A stretch of DNA of 64,000 nucleotides, from assembly GCF_013408175.1 (NCBI RefSeq), contig NZ_JACBYW010000007.1, forward strand, positions 186,001 through 250,000, in the 5' to 3' direction. Origin of the DNA: Actinopolyspora biskrensis. Lineage in GTDB: Bacteria > Actinomycetota > Actinomycetes > Mycobacteriales > Pseudonocardiaceae. This document shows positions 1-43,000 of the stretch, piece by piece; within the stretch, counting starts at the first letter, position 1, and each line of letters starts with the position of its first letter. The notes below the pieces were generated by a model. That model ran no database searches. It was not told where the DNA came from and worked only from the letters and a program-made list of their open reading frames with translations. The translations under genes were made by a program, and so were the position numbers.

Positions 1-25
1 CGTGGCGTCCGGCGCCGCCCGCGGT

Positions 26-15643: not shown

Positions 15644-16569
15644 CGGTGCTCCTCCCGTTGTCTGCGCCTGTCGGGACGTACCTGCAGGCGGTGTCCGCCG
15701 ACCGCTTTGGAGGTGGCCTGCAGGGCTTCTTTGGCGTCGTCCAGGTGGCGCTGGGCCACCCCGACGAACAGGCAGTCGATCACGGTGAGCTGGGCGATCC
15801 TGCTGGCCATCGCCCCCGAACGGTAGGTGGTCTCCCTGGCCGCCGTCGTGAGCACCAGATCGGCTATCTCGGTGATGGGGGAGCGCTCGAAGTTCGTGAT
15901 GGCGGCCGTGGTCGCCCCGCGGGTGCGGGCCTCCCGCAGGATCTCGACCGTTTCCGTGGTGGCCCCCGTGTGCGAGACGCCGATGGCCACGTCCCCGTCG
16001 CGCAGCAGCGCCGCCGAGGTCAGCGCGTTGTGCGTGTCGGGCCACGCGAAACACGTCAGACCTATGCGGTGCAGTTTCTGCTGCAGGTCGAGCGCGACGA
16101 ATCCGCTGGCTCCGACGCCGTAGACATCGATGCGTCCGGCCCCCGAGACGGCGTCGATCAGCGGAGCCAGCGCGTTCGTGTCGAGCTGTCCGGTGGTTTC
16201 CTCGACCGCTCGCGCGTCCGCGTAGCCGATCTTGTCGACTATCTGGGTGAGATCGTCCTCCTCGGAGATGTCGCTGCCCAGGTCCCGGTCCCGGCTGGTG
16301 GTGCGTGCCGTGTCGGCCGCGAGCGCTATCCGCAGCTCGGGATAACCGGTCACCCCGACCGCCTTGCAGAAGCGGGTCACCGTCGTTTCGCTGGTCTCGG
16401 CCGCTTCGGCCACCTCGGTGATGCTGCGGTGGGCGATCGAGGACGGGTCCGCGAGTACGATCCGTGCCACACGTTGCTCGGCGCGCGCCAGGCCGGGCAG
16501 CAGGGATCGGATCCGCACGAGCGGGCTGTGCTCGCCGGTCTCGGAACCCGCTTCATCGAGTGTGGCCAT
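15640..16569 (-). CDS. murR: RpiR-family regulator, MurR-like
   Basis: 309 aa. Residues 18-95 form the RpiR helix-turn-helix (ARAEQRVARIVL, EVAEAAETSETTVTRFCKAVG) and residues 130-285 a SIS sugar-phosphate sensor domain (DVYGVGASGFVALD, GVSHTGATTETVE). In Escherichia coli MurR represses murQP and responds to MurNAc-6-phosphate. Overlap with murQ supports the same role here. The ATG lies 6 nt after a -10 box, so it is probably leaderless. A symmetrical GTTA-C-TAAC sequence overlaps that box and may be the site of autorepression. Confidence 0.88.
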   Translation of the reverse strand: MATLDEAGSETGEHSPLVRIRSLLPGLARAEQRVARIVLADPSSIAHRSITEVAEAAETSETTVTRFCKAVGVTGYPELRIALAADTARTTSRDRDLGSDISEEDDLTQIVDKIGYADARAVEETTGQLDTNALAPLIDAVSGAGRIDVYGVGASGFVALDLQQKLHRIGLTCFAWPDTHNALTSAALLRDGDVAIGVSHTGATTETVEILREARTRGATTAAITNFERSPITEIADLVLTTAARETTYRSGAMASRIAQLTVIDCLFVGVAQRHLDDAKEALQATSKAVGGHRLQVRPDRRRQREEHR

Positions 16570-16575
16570 GTGGGA

Positions 16576-16605
16576 AAGTTACTAACATCACTGTTGAGCG
16601 GTCAA
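16576..16605 (-). promoter_or_regulatory. murR-murQ promoter and candidate operator
   Basis: On the minus strand TTGACC (16605-16600), an 18 bp spacer and TAACTT (16581-16576) form a good housekeeping promoter. Six bases separate the -10 from the ATG. The dyad GTTACTAAC at 16578-16586 overlaps the -10 and would block polymerase if bound. Confidence 0.6.
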
Positions 16606-16640
16606 ACGCCGTGCCCAACCTCCCCGCTCGGAACCGGCGC

Positions 16641-16669
16641 CGCCGGGGCGGGAGCCACCCGCCCCGGCG
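16641..16669 (-). terminator. GC-rich hairpin after erm
   Basis: A perfect 12 bp stem (CGCCGGGGCGGG and its complement) with a 5 nt loop lies just downstream of the erm stop codon and upstream of the murR promoter. No U tract follows; such stems are common actinobacterial terminators. Confidence 0.65.
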
Positions 16670-16692
16670 AGCCACGTCCCCCGCTCAGGGGG

Positions 16693-17517
16693 TCAGTCCC
16701 GGGACCTGCGGTTTTTCCGCGCGGGCTCCGAGCACAGTCGCCACAACCGTGCCCACTGCTCGGCCGTCAGGTCCTTCGGCAACGCGTCGGTCGGGAGCTC
16801 CCGATCACGCAGCCGGTGCGCGGCACCGGCGCCGTTCAGCTGCCCGGTGCGCACCAGGATCCGTAGTAGTCCGCGTCCTGGGCCGGTGAACACCCGCTTG
16901 ACGAAGCGTTGGTACGCCTCCCGTTCGGTGACCAGCGGACTCGGGCGGCGGTGGATCGTGATCAGACCGGCGTCCACGGAGGGGACCGGGCGGAAGGATC
17001 GCGCGGGGACGCGGGCGTGGAGTTCGAACTCGTACCACGGCCACCAGCTCGCGGTGAGCATGCTGGCACCGCCTACACCGGCGCGCCGGCGAGCGACCTC
17101 CCACTGGACCAGCAGCACGGCCGTCCGCCAGTGCTCCGCGGCGAGGACCCGCCGCAGTATGGGGGTGGTCAGGTGGAACGGCAGATTTCCCACCAGCGTG
17201 TGGGGGTGCCGGGGGAACCGGAAGCGCAGGACGTCATCCCGGACGACGCGCACGTTGTCCGGTGTGCGCTGTTCGAGCCTGTCCGCGTGCCGGGAATCCA
17301 GCTCCACGGCGGTTATCGGCCTTCCCGCCTCACCCAGTGGAACGGTGACCGCTCCACTGCCGGGGCACAGTTCCACTATCGGATCCGGTGCCTGCCCGGT
17401 CAGTCGCGTGATGGTGTCGATCGTCGCCCCGTCGACGAGGAGGTTCTGACCCAGTTCGTGTGGTCCGCCCGGGTGTGCGGCGACAGCAGTGTACGAGCGA
17501 GAACGTCGCTTGGACAT
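16693..17517 (-). CDS. erm: Erm-type 23S rRNA adenine N6-methyltransferase
   Basis: 274 aa SAM-dependent enzyme that methylates the macrolide-binding adenine of 23S rRNA (A2058 in E. coli numbering), giving macrolide-lincosamide-streptogramin B resistance. Visible motifs are ELGQNLLVDGATI at the N-terminus, VELCPGSGAVTVPL (SAM motif I), AVELDSRHADRL, and VGNLPFHLTTPIL (catalytic motif IV). The short basic N- and C-terminal tails match actinomycete Erm proteins better than KsgA. It has GCGGAG 7 nt before the ATG. A leader peptide and competing hairpins upstream suggest drug-inducible translation. No macrolide biosynthesis genes are nearby. KsgA-like dimethyltransferase is a less likely alternative. 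Confidence 0.88.
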   Translation of the reverse strand: MSKRRSRSYTAVAAHPGGPHELGQNLLVDGATIDTITRLTGQAPDPIVELCPGSGAVTVPLGEAGRPITAVELDSRHADRLEQRTPDNVRVVRDDVLRFRFPRHPHTLVGNLPFHLTTPILRRVLAAEHWRTAVLLVQWEVARRRAGVGGASMLTASWWPWYEFELHARVPARSFRPVPSVDAGLITIHRRPSPLVTEREAYQRFVKRVFTGPGRGLLRILVRTGQLNGAGAAHRLRDRELPTDALPKDLTAEQWARLWRLCSEPARKNRRSRD

Positions 17518-17524
17518 GGAGAAA

Positions 17525-17601
17525 CTCCGCTGAAGACGTTTCGGAGCCGGTCGGCCGGGAAAAGCGACCGGACCGGCGATTGCTCCGAAAAGCGGCGGAG
17601 C
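17525..17601 (-). promoter_or_regulatory. Candidate translational attenuator of erm
   Basis: Four complementary segments lie between leader peptide and erm. Read on the minus strand they are: 1 GCTCCG (17601-17596), 2 CGGAGC extending to TTTCGGAGC (17590-17582), 3 GCTCCGAAA (17547-17539) and 4 CGGAG of the erm ribosome binding site (17529-17525). Pairing 1:2 with 3:4 hides the ribosome binding site; pairing 2:3 (9 bp) frees it. This is the logic of ermC-type attenuators. Confidence 0.6.
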
Positions 17602-17618
17602 CGAGAGAAGAAGGGATC

Positions 17619-17643
17619 AGCCCGCCGCCGTCAGCGGCGGGGC
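17619..17643 (-). promoter_or_regulatory. Hairpin over the leader peptide stop codon
   Basis: CCCGCCGC and GCGGCGGG form a perfect 8 bp stem. The leader stop codon TGA lies in its 5 nt loop, so a ribosome on the last leader codons would open this hairpin. Confidence 0.55.
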
Positions 17644-17678
17644 CTGATGTAGAAGCAGCTCAGGTGATGTGCGAACAC
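17631..17678 (-). CDS. Erm leader peptide (15 codons)
   Basis: GTG start, sequence MFAHHLSCFYIRPRR, then TGA. It lies 161 bp from start to start upstream of erm on the same strand. The Arg-rich end IRPRR recalls Arg-containing leader peptides at which macrolide-bound ribosomes stall. TACTCT lies 7 nt before the GTG, so the transcript seems to begin at the leader start codon. Too short to be recognised by homology; support is positional and structural. Confidence 0.55.
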   Translation of the reverse strand: MFAHHLSCFYIRPRR

Positions 17679-17685
17679 ACCGTGC

Positions 17686-17691
17686 AGAGTA
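17686..17691 (-). promoter_or_regulatory. -10 element of the erm leader transcript
   Basis: TACTCT on the minus strand, 7 nt before the leader GTG. The -35 region is not convincing. Confidence 0.4.
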
Positions 17692-17725
17692 GCAGTGCGG
17701 CCAACCGGTTTTCGGTGGCTCGCGC

Positions 17726-18064
17726 TCAGCGGGGTGTTCCCTGGTGGTGCCGCAGGCGCCACCCCGCGCGGGTGCGGACCCACACCGAACTGCGCAGGGT
17801 GGTCACCCCGCCCCGGCTCGCGGTGTAGGTCAGCAGTGCCACGTCCGGGGACAGCCGCGCCGGACGGAAGTCATCGGCGGTGATCCCCTCGGCCGTGGCC
17901 GACGTGGCTTCGGTGACCGTGGTCGGGTCCCACCGCTTTCCCGAAGCCCCGATCTCGGAGAAGTCCTCGTGCAGCAGTCTCCGCACTGCCTCGGGGTCGC
18001 CGCGCACGGCCGGATCCAGCAGTTCGAGCTCGTGCGCGACGACCGCGTCGAGGTCCGGGTCCAT
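17726..18064 (-). CDS. DUF4440 / NTF2-like small protein
   Basis: 112 aa alpha+beta-barrel protein: an N-terminal helix with ELLDPAVRGDPEAVRRLLHEDFSEIG is followed by a sheet with TASRGGVTTLRSSVWVRTRAGWRLRHHQGT, the usual DUF4440 (SnoaL-like) ending. Members serve as small enzymes or ligand-binding proteins; no function can be assigned. The ATG lies 6 nt after TACGAT, so it is probably transcribed on its own without a leader. It sits between erm and the PPOX gene. Confidence 0.85.
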   Translation of the reverse strand: MDPDLDAVVAHELELLDPAVRGDPEAVRRLLHEDFSEIGASGKRWDPTTVTEATSATAEGITADDFRPARLSPDVALLTYTASRGGVTTLRSSVWVRTRAGWRLRHHQGTPR

Positions 18065-18070
18065 GCGGTG

Positions 18071-18076
18071 ATCGTA
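18071..18076 (-). promoter_or_regulatory. -10 element of DUF4440 gene (leaderless)
   Basis: TACGAT on the minus strand, 6 nt before the ATG at 18064. Confidence 0.45.
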
Positions 18077-18115
18077 TCCGGTGCCGCCGTCCCCACGCCG
18101 CTGTGCGATGGGGGC

Positions 18116-18508
18116 TCACATCCGTGTGGAGTGCTCCGGCTCGACGTAGACGATCACCCGGTGGTCGCCCGGCTGGTGGTACGGGTACTCGTCCGCGTCC
18201 ATGTACTTCTTCGCCAGCTTGTTGATGAAGGTGTTGTCCGGATCGTCCTCCACCCGGGCGACCTTTCCGCGGATCTCGATGTAGCGGTAGGGCTGTTCGG
18301 GGTCCAGTGCGGAAAGAGCCAGCCGCGGCTCCCGCTGCAGGTTGCGGTACTTCTGGCGGGTGGTGGTCTGGCTGAACTTGACGTACCGGCCGTCCCAGTC
18401 GATCCACACCGGACTCGACTGCGGTTCCCCCTTCGGACCGGTCGTCGCGATGTGGGCGAACGAGCGCTTGTTCAGAATGTCCTCGAGATCCTGCGGAACC
18501 ACGGGCAC
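18116..18508 (-). CDS. PPOX-class F420-dependent oxidoreductase
   Basis: 130 aa split-barrel flavin/deazaflavin-binding protein related to pyridoxamine 5'-phosphate oxidase. Typical motifs are RSFAHIATTGPKGEPQSSPVW, KFSQTTTRQKYRNLQREPR and YIEIRGKVARVEDD. Mycobacterial relatives (Rv1155 type) bind cofactor F420 and reduce small substrates. The GTG at 18508 is chosen over the open frame to 18649 because GGAGGGG lies about 8 nt upstream and the conserved domain begins there; the longer version would run into the dispersed repeat. Confidence 0.88.
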   Translation of the reverse strand: MPVVPQDLEDILNKRSFAHIATTGPKGEPQSSPVWIDWDGRYVKFSQTTTRQKYRNLQREPRLALSALDPEQPYRYIEIRGKVARVEDDPDNTFINKLAKKYMDADEYPYHQPGDHRVIVYVEPEHSTRM

Positions 18509-18601
18509 GGTGTTCTCCCCTCCGTTGTGCCAACGCCTGGAATCGACCCCGAGATTACCCGAAGTAGTCGCTTGTGCCCGCAAGGAAATCGCCGGTGGGT
18601 C

Positions 18602-18647
18602 GCCACCCGATGTCGGGACACCCGCTCGCGAGACCGCGGGAGGTTCC
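18602..18647 (+). repeat. Dispersed repeat, copy C
   Basis: Forward orientation, 46 bp: GCCACCCGATGTCGGGACA, CGAGACCGCGG, GGTTCC. It lies in the gap between the PPOX gene start and the end of the AmiE-like gene. Confidence 0.8.
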
Positions 18648-18690
18648 ACCAGGTGAGTGTCCTGTCAACCGGAACGGGGAGCTCTCCCGC

Positions 18691-20439
18691 TCAGCGTTGG
18701 GCGACCAGGAATCCGGAACCGGTCAGACCGCTCGGGTCGGCTTCCCCGTCGAGCAGCTTCTCCCCTCCGGAGGTCAGCTTTATCCCGTCCAGGTACACGC
18801 CGCGCCCGACGTAGCGCTCGTCCGGGGAGAAGCGCCAACGCACCAGCAGCGAGTCCGACTCGCCGCCGGGGACCGTGCCGCGCACTCTCCACCAGGAGCG
18901 GTGCCCGGAGCCTGCCAGTTCGGTGACCGGGCCGCGCGGGGCTCCGCGGCCGCGCACGTGCAGGGGAACGGGCTGCCAGCTGTCCCCGCCGTCCCGGCTG
19001 TACTCGAGCCGGAGCGGATCCGCTCCGTCCGGGTCGCGCTGGGTGTCCACGAAGGCGTCGAAGGAGACCCGCACCCGTCCGTCGGCCCGCACCCGGTCGG
19101 TGGTGAGCGTGGCCTCGGTTTCCGTGCTGCCGCCACCGGTGAACCAGGCGGTCGGGCCGTGACGTGGTTCCACGGACATCGAACGGGCCAGCCCTTCGGC
19201 CAGCTCGACGCGGGCCGGATTGTTCGACCCCCACTCCCGCGAGGGATGCACCCGGTTGGTGAGCAGTACGGCCATCGAACGCGAGGCGGGGTCCAGCACC
19301 ATCGAAGTCCCCGTGTACCCGGTGTGTCCCGCCGTACGTGGCCCGGTCAACCCGGCCATGTACCAGCGCTGCCCCAGCTCGAACCCGAGACCGTGGGAGT
19401 GCTCGGGGAACTCGCTGTTGTAGTCGGTCAGCATCAGTTCGACGCTGCGCTCCCGCAGTATCCGCGCTCCCCCGTAGCTGCCCCCGTTGAGGACGGCCTG
19501 CCCGAGCACGGCCAGGTCCCGTGCGGTGGAGAAGATCCCCGCGTGCCCGGCCACACCCCCGAGCGACCACGCGTTCTCGTCGTGCACCCTGCCGCGCAGC
19601 ATCCCGCGCGAGGGCTGTCGCTGGTACTCCGTGGCCGCGATCCGGTCCGCTTCGGACCGGGGAGGGAGATAGCCGGTGTCCCGCATGCCCAGCGGCTCCG
19701 TTATCCGTTCCCGTACCATCCGGTCCAGCGACTTTCCGGAGACCCGCTCGACCAGCTCACCGAGCACGATCATGTTCGGGTCCGAGTAGTTGTAGCTGCT
19801 GCCCGGTTCGTTCACCGGCTCCAGCCCCATCACGTGGGGGACGCGTTCCTCGGCGGGCAGCTCCCACAGGCGCACCACGGACTGCAGCCCCGAGGTGTGG
19901 GTCAGCAGTTGGCGCACGGTTATCCCGGACTTTCCGTGGTTGCCGAACTCGGGCAGATACCGCGCCGCGGGCTCCTCCAGCTCCACCCGGCCCCGTTCGA
20001 CCTGCTGGAGAACGGCGACCGAGGTGAACAGCTTCGTCATCGAGGCGATGTCGAAGATGGTCGAGGTCTCGGCCTTCTCGCGTTCCGCCGGGGGGAGTTC
20101 GGTGCCCGCGTCGTCGGAGTAGCGCAACTCGTAGCCCGCCGCCTCGTGGCTGACCACCCGGCCGTTGTGCGCCACCAGGCTCACGGCCCCGCCGTACATC
20201 GGGTGCTGCCGTCCGGGGACCTCCTCGGTCCAGTCGGCGATCTTCCGGGTGGCCGTGACGAGCGGCCACGGGGCCAGGCCCGCCTCCCGCGGCGACGAGT
20301 CGCGCAGCCGGGTGTCGGCCGGGGCGAACCCCTCCTTCGGCAGGTCGAACCTGCCTTCTCCGCGCGTGGTGGAGGAAGCCGCGCAGGTGGTGACGGCCAG
20401 CATCGAAACCAGCACCGTTGCCAACATCGGTTTGCGCAT
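18691..20439 (-). CDS. Beta-lactamase family serine hydrolase, AmiE-like
   Basis: 582 aa exported protein. A signal sequence (MLATVLVSMLAVTT followed by Cys19, a poor lipobox) precedes a class C beta-lactamase/esterase domain. That domain has SMTK as the nucleophile motif, YSDPN as the Tyr motif and HTGYTG in the KTG position. After residue ~440 there is a beta-rich region of ~140 aa (LEYSRDGGDSWQPVP, VRWRFSPDERYVG) not found in small esterases. In Bacillus subtilis the amiE gene beside nagZ and namZ encodes a serine hydrolase that removes peptide from MurNAc. The same neighbours suggest the same role here. ATG at 20439 follows GAGG; a GTG two codons upstream is possible. Confidence 0.8.
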   Translation of the reverse strand: MRKPMLATVLVSMLAVTTCAASSTTRGEGRFDLPKEGFAPADTRLRDSSPREAGLAPWPLVTATRKIADWTEEVPGRQHPMYGGAVSLVAHNGRVVSHEAAGYELRYSDDAGTELPPAEREKAETSTIFDIASMTKLFTSVAVLQQVERGRVELEEPAARYLPEFGNHGKSGITVRQLLTHTSGLQSVVRLWELPAEERVPHVMGLEPVNEPGSSYNYSDPNMIVLGELVERVSGKSLDRMVRERITEPLGMRDTGYLPPRSEADRIAATEYQRQPSRGMLRGRVHDENAWSLGGVAGHAGIFSTARDLAVLGQAVLNGGSYGGARILRERSVELMLTDYNSEFPEHSHGLGFELGQRWYMAGLTGPRTAGHTGYTGTSMVLDPASRSMAVLLTNRVHPSREWGSNNPARVELAEGLARSMSVEPRHGPTAWFTGGGSTETEATLTTDRVRADGRVRVSFDAFVDTQRDPDGADPLRLEYSRDGGDSWQPVPLHVRGRGAPRGPVTELAGSGHRSWWRVRGTVPGGESDSLLVRWRFSPDERYVGRGVYLDGIKLTSGGEKLLDGEADPSGLTGSGFLVAQR

Positions 20440-40061: not shown

Positions 40062-43000
40062 GTGGCTGGCTCGACACGGACGAAGAAGGACAGCGCCGAG
40101 GGGCGCGCTTCTCAGACTTCCACCGGGGGCTCCGGCGGTCGGCGGTTGGTGATCGTCGAGTCCCCGGCCAAGGCGCGCAAGATCGCTTCCTTTCTCGGCT
40201 CGGGCTACCAGGTCGAGTCGTCCCGCGGACACATCAGGGACCTGCCGCGCGGAGCGGCGGACATCCCCGCCGCCTACAAGGGGCATTCGTGGGCCCGTCT
40301 CGGTGTGGACGTGGAGAACGACTTCGAACCGCTCTATCTGGTGACCGACGACAAGCAGGACACGGTCGACGAGCTGCGGGAAGCGCTGTCCGGGGTCGAC
40401 GAGTTGTATCTGGCCACGGACGGCGACCGCGAGGGCGAGGCCATCGCCTGGCACCTGCTGGAGACGCTGCAGCCGTCGGTGCCCGTCCGGCGCATGGTCT
40501 TCCACGAGATCACCGAGTCGGCCATTCAGGCGGCGGCGGCCAACCCGAGGGAGCTGGACCACAACCTCGTCGACGCGCAGGAGACCAGGCGCATCCTGGA
40601 CCGGCTCTACGGCTACGAGGTCAGTCCCGTGCTGTGGAAGAAGGTCATGCCGAAGCTCTCGGCGGGCAGGGTGCAGTCGGTGGCCACCCGGATCGTGGTG
40701 CAGCGCGAGCGGGAGCGCATCCGTTTCGTCCCGGCCTCCTACTGGGACATCGCCGCCACGCTGCGCGTTCCCGAGGAGCAGGGTTCCGGCTTCGGCGCAC
40801 GCCTGGTCAGCGTCGACGGCGCGAAGCTGGCCACCGGGAGGGACTTCGGCCCGGACGGGGAGCTGACCGGCGAGGCGCTCGTGCTGGACGAGCAGCGCGC
40901 CCGCTCGCTCGCCGCGGGGTTGGACACGGCCGACCTGAGCGTGTCCAGCGTCGAGGAGAAGCCCTACACGCGGAAGCCCTACGCGCCGTTCATGACCTCC
41001 ACGCTGCAGCAGGAGGCCGGACGCAAGCTGCGCTTCTCGGCGGACCGCACGATGCGCACCGCGCAGCGGTTGTACGAGAACGGTTACATCACCTACATGC
41101 GCACGGACTCCACGACGCTGTCCGACACGGCGATCAACGCCGCGCGGCAGCAGGCCGTGGAGCTCTACGGCGACAGCTACATCTCCGGGCAGGCCCGGCA
41201 GTACACGCGCAAGGTCAAGAACGCCCAGGAGGCCCACGAGGCCATCCGACCGGCGGGGGAGAACTTCCGCACCCCGAGGGATGTGGGCTCGGAGCTGGAC
41301 GCCGACGGGTACAAGCTCTACGAGCTGATCTGGCAGCGCACGATCTCCTCCCAGATGGCCGACGCCAAGGGGACCACGATGTCGGTCCGGGTGTCCGGAA
41401 CCGCCGGGACCGGGGAGGAGTGCGTTTTCGCCGCCTCGGGCAGGACGATCACCTTCCCCGGGTTCCTCAAGGCCTACGTCGAGTCGGTGGACTCGGAGGC
41501 GGGCGGCGTCGCCGACGACGCGGAGTCGCGGCTGCCGCGGCTGGTCGAGGGCCAGCACCTCAGGGCGGGCGAGCTCGAGCCGGACGAGCACTCGACGAAC
41601 CCACCGGCCCGCTACACCGAGGCCAGCCTGGTCAAGGCGCTCGAGGACCTGGGCATCGGCCGTCCGTCCACCTACGCCTCGATCATCAGCACCATCCAGG
41701 AACGCGGCTACGTCTGGCGGAAGGGGTCGGCGCTCGTGCCGTCCTGGATCGCCTTCGCCGTGATCGGTCTGCTGGAGCAGCACTTCGGCAGGCTGGTCGA
41801 CTACGACTTCACCGCCGCGCTGGAGGACGAGCTCGACCGCATAGCCGAGGGTGCGCAGCAGCGCACCAGATGGCTCCACGGCTTCTACTTCGGCGGTGAG
41901 GTGGGTCCGCAGGACTCCATCGGCCGGGCGGGCGGCCTGAAGAAGCTCGTCGGCTCCGGTGTGGAGGACATCGACGCCCGCCAGGTCAACTCGATCCCGA
42001 TGTTCAGCGACGACGAGGGTCGCACGGTGTACGTGCGTGTCGGTCGCTACGGCCCGTACCTGGAACGTCCGGCGCACGCCACCGAGAACGGCGGCGGGGA
42101 GTCGCAGCGCGCCAACCTTCCGGACGCGCTCGCGCCCGACGAGCTGACGCCCCAGATCGCGGAGAAGCTGTTCGCCACTCCGATGGAGGGCCGCACGCTC
42201 GGAACGGACCCGGACAGCGGCAACGAGGTCGTGGCCAAGGACGGTCGGTTCGGACCCTACGTGACCGAGGTCCTGCCGGAGGGGACCAAGGGCAAGCCGC
42301 GTACCGCCAGCCTGTTCAAGTCCATGTCGTTGGACACCGTCACCCTGGAGGACGCGCTGCGGCTGCTCTCGCTGCCGCGCACGGTCGGCACCGACCCCGA
42401 CACGGGTGAGGAGATCACCGCGCAGAACGGTCGTTACGGTCCGTACCTCAAGCGGGGGAGTGACTCGCGTTCCCTGGACAACGAGGAACAGATCTTCACG
42501 GTCACCCTTGAGGAGGCCCGCCGGATCTACGAGCAGCCCAAGCAGCGTGCTCGCAGGGCGGCCGCCCCTCCGCTGCGGGAGTTGGGCGAAGAGCCCGACA
42601 CCGGCAAGAACCTGGTCGTCAAGGACGGTCGGTTCGGGCCCTACGTGACCGACGGGGAGACGAACGCCTCGTTGCGCAAGGGTGACACGGTCGAGGAGCT
42701 GAGCAAGGACCGCGCGATCGAGCTGGTCGCCGAGCGGCGGGCCAAGGCCCCGGCCAAGAAGAAGGGGACCAAGAAGTCGAAGAGCACGAGTTCGGGCGGC
42801 GGGACCAGGAGTGGTGCCAAGGCCAAGGACAGCGGGTCCGCGGACTCGTCCTCCGGGACGAACGGGACCGGTTCCTCCACGGGCTCGTCCGGCAAGAAGT
42901 CGTCCGGCAAGAGTTCGGGGACTTCCTCCGGGAGCAAGGGTTCCACCGCCAAGAGCGGCACGTCGAAGAGCTCCACGGCCAAGAGCGGCACGTCGAAGAG

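Follow-up and report, generated by a model that had tools for sequence, protein, structure and literature searches.

A probable translational attenuator upstream of erm in Actinopolyspora biskrensis, with related leaders before other resistance genes of Actinomycetes

In the attenuator of ermC, four RNA segments can pair either as 1:2 together with 3:4 or as 2:3, and the leader peptide ErmCL carries the arrest motif IFVI. An arrest motif of another type, +X+ (RLR), is found in ErmDL, the leader peptide of ermD of Bacillus, on which the ribosome stalls with X in the P site and the second Arg in the A site (PMC8298421). For erm(X) of Corynebacterium plasmids, a short leader peptide gene has been described that might act via erythromycin-inducible translational attenuation (PMC3350403). 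A survey of regions upstream of erm genes reports that uORFs and palindromes are not universally conserved and postulates that they may have arisen independently (PMC11264731).

Here, we describe the region upstream of an erm gene in a 64,000-nt stretch of Actinopolyspora biskrensis DNA (the window). The complementary segments found there probably belong to a conserved translational attenuator of erm, and the window copy is most readily assigned to the already known ermX/ermD-like RxR class of erm attenuators. Wide joint conservation of its parts and recurrence before ABC-F and MFS genes appear to be new: no description of either was found in the portions of the open-licence PMC literature covered by the search, and among titles on the leader peptides of erm(36) and erm(X) nothing related was found.

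The erm gene, its leader ORF and start signals

The window encodes on the minus strand a 23S rRNA (adenine-2058) N6-methyltransferase of 274 aa (16693..17517), which belongs to the Erm family by NF000499 (254.7 bits; curated cut-off 212), matches PF00398 and has Erm(38) as its closest solved structure (7f8a, E 7.7e-69). This erm is carried by nine of the ten Actinopolyspora genomes searched, its own included, and was not found in the tenth (G006). The scanned neighbours of the gene include a MurR/RpiR-type regulator, a DUF4440 protein and an F420-dependent oxidoreductase. A second match to Erm in the same genome (L002, C6 440921-441574), 38% identical, is possibly the housekeeping RsmA/KsgA.

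Upstream on the same strand lies a leader ORF of 15 codons (17631..17678; GTG at 17678, TGA at 17631), whose peptide is identical in two genus mates (L037 and L038). A first reading of the letters alone (the sequence-only reading) had rightly recognised the architecture of ermC, here in a GC-rich actinomycete, and the position of the leader ORF. The peptide, MFAHHLSCFYIRPRR, does not contain the IFVI motif of the ErmCL class; unlike ErmCL, it carries RPRR, with a +X+ motif (RxR, Arg/Lys-X-Arg/Lys) at R12-P13-R14. In this respect it is like ErmDL, in which, unlike in the window leader, further residues follow the motif. An extra hairpin and a probable leaderless start also set the window apart from ermC.

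A -10-like hexamer, TACTCT (17686..17691, minus strand), with TGC in front of it as in an extended -10 (TGn), stands 7 nt before the leader GTG. Because the GTG is only 7 nt past this hexamer, the leader start is probably leaderless, transcription beginning at or beside the GTG. Most transcripts activated by WblC in Streptomyces start 7-8 bp downstream of the -10 (PMC7157823), and therefore translation of the leader probably begins on a leaderless mRNA. No promoter was returned for 17450-17850 by a strict sigma-70 scan.

These start signals bear on a different explanation, in which erm is controlled transcriptionally, by WblC/WhiB7 activation or by a terminator, and the hairpins have no part in regulating translation. 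Promoters of the WblC/WhiB7 regulon have the elements GAAAWY, TKG and TANNNT (PMC7157823), which are strictly present before 8 of 65 erm leaders and in none of 200 shuffled sets; a WblC-like half-site, GAAAAC-CGG-TTGGCC (17699..17713, minus strand), lies upstream in the window, and uORF-driven transcription attenuation has been described for other actinomycete resistance genes (PMC12421871). However, the window does not conform to the consensus GAAAWY-N3-TKGMNN-16..19-TANNNT, because its spacer to the -10 hexamer is 7 nt (counted by eye). Moreover, no terminator-like site (stem then U-run), the mark of a transcription attenuator, was found in 17450-17850, and control of this kind leaves the conserved pairs that hide the ribosome binding site unexplained. 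We consider it unlikely as the whole account, and the two layers could coexist. The WblC-like site lies about one helical turn (10 bp) too near the -10, which resembles a loss of spacer.

How widely such leaders occur was examined in a collection of 34 genome loci and 54 further loci, some from the same genomes. Seven of 89 loci lacking the N-terminal Erm anchor motif (L047, L050, L051, L053, L077, L082, L087) were excluded; 73 of the 82 anchored loci passed a looser leader filter, and removal of identical and short upstream regions reduced the 82 to 75. A fixed rule required TANNNT ending 6-8 nt before ATG, GTG or TTG, an ORF of 8-25 codons, and [RK]x[RK] within the last six residues. It was matched by 65 of these 75 distinct loci, which accordingly have the short upstream ORF of an ermC-like attenuator; 20 shuffled sets gave 0-2 matches each (mean 0.25) and the reverse complements 0/75. 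The -10 is separated from the leader start by 7 nt in 44 of the 65 loci, by 8 in 14 and by 6 in 7, and is TGn-extended in 31 (shuffles average 3.25, maximum 8). The 58 distinct peptides all contain RxR, for which they were selected, and 45 contain RxRR; aligned on RxR, the commonest residues are [F/Y/V]-[T/I/V]-R-[I/L/P]-R-R-A-stop. In 57 of them the stop codon comes no more than two residues past RxR, where the rule allowed three.

The plasmid genes erm(36), erm(55), erm(X), erm(50) and erm(51) and a plasmid Nocardioides erm also have RxR leaders with a -10 located 6-7 nt upstream; in the last three of these, the RxR is far from the stop. The erm(X) leader, MLISGTAFLRLRTNR, resembles that of the window in its RLR, in a -10-like hexamer that precedes the ATG by 7 nt and in a stop about 100 nt before the gene, whereas its peptide ends in RLRTNR instead of RPRR and its Erm is ~43% identical to the window Erm. 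Similar too are the leaders of erm(36) of Micrococcus luteus pMEC2, MGSPSIAVTRFRRF, and erm(55) of Mycobacteroides chelonae, MGITSVAVIRIRRF, both with RxRR plus F and stop, the -10 being 7 and 6 nt upstream, respectively; their Erm proteins are ~51% identical to that of the window. Neither leader ORF is present in the PLSDB annotation tables, which are incomplete. The erm(46) leader (L094), MGNTNIAVTEFRRF, has a GTG start with TAGGGT 6 nt upstream and, read by eye, EFRR in place of RxRR, the first Arg missing. In a Halopolyspora locus (L017 2276-2386), two tandem short ORFs precede erm, MSIDMGSVFSIRIRRA and MGTLFSAAP, each ending in an inverted repeat CCGCCGC...GCGGCGG.

Alternative pairings and the proposed ribosome stall

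Between the leader and erm, the sequence-only reading had noticed four segments (17525..17601) alternating between GCUCCG and CGGAGC. All are present on the minus strand as GCUCCG (17601-17596), CGGAGC (17587-17582), GCUCCG (17547-17542) and CGGAG (17529-17525), and the pairings described for them are confirmed: 1:2 has 6 bp, 3:4 has 5 bp (6 counting a G-U) and 2:3 has 9 contiguous bp, UUUCGGAGC with GCUCCGAAA. Segment 4 contains GGAG, 7 nt upstream of the erm ATG at 17517. The arrangement exceeds chance, because the same arrangement recurs in relatives. The 179-nt RNA from 17690 to 17512 folds at -73.8 kcal/mol, compared with -59.5 +/- 3.9 for 200 dinucleotide shuffles (z -3.7), none of which is equally stable.

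The range of that reading is incomplete, in that it leaves out two further segments, a (17634..17648; 17648-17634 in the sense of transcription), which is the last five leader codons AUC AGG CCC CGC CGC, and b (GCGGCGGGCUGAU; 17616..17628, or 17628-17616). This omission matters because only a and b are directly reachable by a stalled ribosome: in a scheme of 1:2 and 3:4 against 2:3 alone, a ribosome stalled near 17640 would miss segment 1. We distinguish, all on the minus strand, segment a, identified by its duplex with b and by the swap test described below; segment b, which pairs with a in the off state or with c in the on state; segment c (UCGGCUCCGCCGC; 17592..17604), which includes segment 1 and pairs with b (on) or f (off); the hairpin d:e (17542..17587), formed by segments 2 and 3 and identified by folding and the swap test; and segment f (GCGGAGUU; 17523..17530), with the erm Shine-Dalgarno (SD) GGAG, whose predicted off-state partner is c at 17602-17595. 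The duplex energies are -21.8 kcal/mol for a:b, -23.0 for b:c, -16.1 for d:e, -11.3 for c:d, -8.9 for c:f and -8.5 for e:f. Mutually exclusive pairings, one of which hides the ribosome binding site (RBS), are accordingly found both by sequence and by folding.

What the computations show is the leader with its motif, the spacing of the promoter, and the alternative pairings together with their conservation. From them we infer a transcription start site, a ribosome stall, the kind of drug and induction, as follows. Transcription would start at or beside the leader GTG. Without drug, ribosomes would complete the 15-codon leader, so that a:b re-forms, c pairs with f and the erm RBS is hidden. With drug, a ribosome would stall on R12-P13-R14, its P site at Pro13 and its A site at Arg14; codon 13 is the Pro of R-P-R, at which an arrest of the ErmDL type would be predicted to stop the ribosome. 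It would cover a, leaving most of b open; b would then pair with c, freeing f, and Erm would be made. This has the four-segment logic of ermC, played here by a, b, c and f.

Folding of the window leader with pairing limited to 100 nt agrees with such a switch. The free RNA forms c:f (0.985) and d:e (0.994), with a:b at 0.52 by its indicator pair. When a ribosome is walked along the leader, c:f dominates at codons 1-8 and 14-16, returning to 0.82-0.99 from P-site codon 14 onward, and a P site at codons 9-13 gives b:c (0.98-1.0) plus d:e. Folding with and without a stalled ribosome therefore yields the b:c/c:f switch at 100 nt, but other limits differ. With no distance limit, b:c is favoured in the free leader (0.83), the SD being 37% unpaired; at 70 nt, c:f is impossible, and c:d (0.45) and d:e (0.54) divide the free RNA. 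The c:f off state is thus a prediction that holds for local or co-transcriptional folding over about the right range. At two of the three limits, the predicted folds of both states contain the hairpin d:e, which speaks against 2:3 as the switching pair in the window.

Is the RBS then opened by the stall? In 37 leaders hand-picked for folds from c onward, with no shuffle control, this region pairs the SD in every case (c:f in 25, e:f in 12). By energy sum in the same leaders, a free a gives the off state in 32 and a covered a the on state in all 37, the on state being lower in five even when a is free. Taking c away does not free the SD: in 37/37 minimum-energy folds it still has a partner, which is e in 17, a local one in 9 (the window included) and one elsewhere in 11. 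In the predicted on state of the window, the SD pairs with CUCC of its own spacer and is unpaired at 0.22 with codon 13 in the P site. Because these on-state folds keep the SD paired, our confidence in an attenuator was lowered by a small step.

The unpaired probability of the SD showed little signal, rising by more than 0.2 in 6 of 64 leaders and falling in 4 (shuffles 4.4% and 5.7%). The cost of opening the RBS, a measure adopted after that result was known, is in the window 8.2 kcal/mol for free RNA, 5.3 with a ribosome at RPR and 8.1 once the P site has reached the stop codon. For 62 leaders, selected for GGAG upstream of a start codon that a script assigned, perhaps wrongly in some, the means are 8.46 free, 7.09 at RxR and 9.37 at the stop codon. 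The stalled cost is lower than that at the stop codon by at least 2 kcal in 35 of the 62 (the opposite in 2), against 11% of 310 shuffles, and lower than the free cost by the same amount in 23 of the 62, against 10.6% of shuffles. That the hairpins only stabilise or protect the mRNA, the leader being incidental, has a precedent in that mRNA stability matters for ermB (PMC5118997), but a stall that lowers the opening cost beyond shuffles and an RxR conserved near the stop codon argue against it, and we hold it to be very improbable. A translational attenuator of erm that senses ribosome-bound macrolides or related drugs is, on these models, the likely identity of the feature.

Comparative support for the pairings

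Whether the pairings are maintained among relatives was examined by a swap test, which is register-free and compares how well a segment pairs with its native partner and with the corresponding one of another representative. From 51 non-identical leader rows, 29 sequences of <75% identity were drawn; 14 divergent or long leaders had been removed by hand (L030, L052, L054, L062, L067, L078, L081, L083, L084, L085, L086, L088, L089 and L090). Among the 29 representatives, none of 20000 permutations was as good for b:c (z -6.3), e:f (z -5.6) or a:b (z -4.1). Support is moderate for c:f (z -3.0, 66/20000), a pair that would be 1:4 in the numbering of the sequence-only reading and was not proposed there, and some support exists for d1:e (z -2.7, 49/20000), which is 2:3. 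P5:P3 is not significant (z -1.5, 1426/20000). Seven of eight other segment pairs lie at -1.6 to +1.9; the eighth, the control b:f, is mildly above chance (z -2.0, 488/20000), which counts against the model.

The sequence-only reading accordingly holds in its architecture and less so in its pairing details. Across relatives, 2:3 and 3:4 find some support; the latter (e:f) is strong there, yet reaches no more than 0.01 at any of the three limits in the window. Its off-state pair 1:2 (c:d1) finds none (z 0.0, 9628/20000). Extended upstream, that scheme becomes a domino of six segments, off as a:b + c:d + e:f and on as b:c + d:e. The strong e:f and moderate d1:e of the swap test, the 12 of 37 leaders that fold with e:f and not c:f, and the c:d of 0.45 in free window RNA at 70 nt are in its favour; it is opposed by the lack of support for c:d1, by the near absence of e:f from the window, where c:d also stays at or below about 0.05 at the other two limits, and by the folding of the window region from c onward with c:f. 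We regard the domino as possible but doubtful, and prefer the switch between c:f and b:c.

Column by column, covariation is weak on the erm leaders because most pairs are invariant: in 20 of them, double changes number 0 for a:b, c:f and d:e, and two b:c pairs show them. In A3, an alignment of non-erm leaders fitted to the structure and containing one weak antisense row (L115 228-342, E 0.0048), 9 of 22 pairs have changed on both sides (shuffles 3.7 +/- 1.1, 0/500 as high), including 6 of 7 pairs of c:f, the structure to which the alignment was fitted. Sliding A3 by +2 and +3 leaves 7 and 6 double-change pairs, as against 9, and paired cells fall to 24% and 38% from 91%. The swap test and A3 together are the main comparative evidence.

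Related leaders before other resistance genes

A covariance model (R1) was built from 20 hand-picked erm leaders (alignment A2; 132 positions) that include no Actinopolyspora sequence. It matches the window over its full length (positions 1-132 of 132) from the last leader codons to the erm ATG (17515..17651, minus strand; 77.0 bits, E 2.4e-18). Searched with R1, the family (120 genomes) yielded 36 matches at E up to 0.001 and the class (296 genomes) 23 at E up to 0.0001, amounting to 58 distinct matches because that of the window is in both searches. In the window itself, a weak second match at 40230-40326 on the plus strand (18.5 bits, E 0.004) is probably noise; its score equals that of the antisense match in L115. 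Rfam 15 gave no match at E up to 1 in 16500-18700, and phage records gave none.

All but one of the distinct R1 matches (57/58) precede erm, ABC-F or MFS genes: 30 were assigned to Erm, 12 to ABC-F, 7 to LmrA-like MFS, 8 to a second MFS group and 1 (L150) to none, the basis being BLAST against one reference each, NCBIfam or Pfam for part, adjacency to known erm places for 12, and inspection by eye of near-identical sequences for L115, L116, L117, L120, L122 and L125. Five ABC-F proteins tested match best NF000171 (TlrC/CarA/OleB/SrmB) or NF000355, below the curated cut-offs; TlrC has been placed in an ABC-F group conferring macrolide and streptogramin B resistance (PMC10201436). Against NF000031, the three LmrA-like MFS proteins tested reach 3e-136 or better but stay under the cut-off, and four of the second MFS group all match PF07690. 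L150, a member of the class, has an erm-type leader, MGICVVFIRDRRF, with hairpins and no match to Erm, ABC-F or MFS nearby by tblastn; our reading is an orphan or decayed locus.

Leaders were examined in 26 of the 27 non-erm loci, L129 being excluded as a partial match. A short ORF with a -10 located 6-8 nt upstream is present in 23 of the 26 under a loose rule with no shuffle control, by which short leaders such as L148, L149 and L123 may be chance. Three loci have no such leader, 13 no RxR and one no SD; six of the nine testable leaders gained at least 2 kcal (shuffles 6%). One ABC-F leader, MYTGTAFMRPRLRA, resembles that of erm(X), and many non-erm leaders are without RxR. Seven leaders of LmrA-like MFS genes (L115, L117-L120, L147, L155) have VTRTxR and no RxR, which hints that the arrest signal or the drug differs, and three of ABC-F genes (L121, L122, L130) end in MPPxxAA, not RxR, the -10 spacing being again 7.

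To what would the leader respond? It might sense a ketolide, streptogramin B or a lincosamide more than 14-membered macrolides: arrest on ErmDL is strictly dependent on RLR for telithromycin and less so for erythromycin (PMC8298421), and related leaders precede LmrA-like and TlrC-like genes. Against this, Erm acts alike on macrolides, lincosamides and streptogramin B. We keep this preference only as a tentative alternative to a sensor of macrolides and related drugs in general.

The recurrence before unrelated resistance genes suggests a shared, reusable drug sensor. We incline to the view that one antibiotic-sensing 5′ module, namely a three-hairpin RBS switch plus a leaderless short ORF that almost always terminates in RxR(R) when erm follows, is common to unrelated resistance classes of Actinomycetes: Erm (target methylation), ABC-F of the TlrC/CarA type (target protection), and LmrA-like and second-group MFS (efflux), and would have spread by exchange of 5′ regions between genes. 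If so, one and the same ribosome stall could set off several lines of defence in a cell. Leader peptide, promoter spacing and RNA switch have been conserved jointly within a single large actinobacterial Erm clade. Should the response to drug be borne out, inducible resistance in actinobacteria could be searched for by this signature, and it could be tested directly whether regulatory leaders pass from one resistance gene to another.
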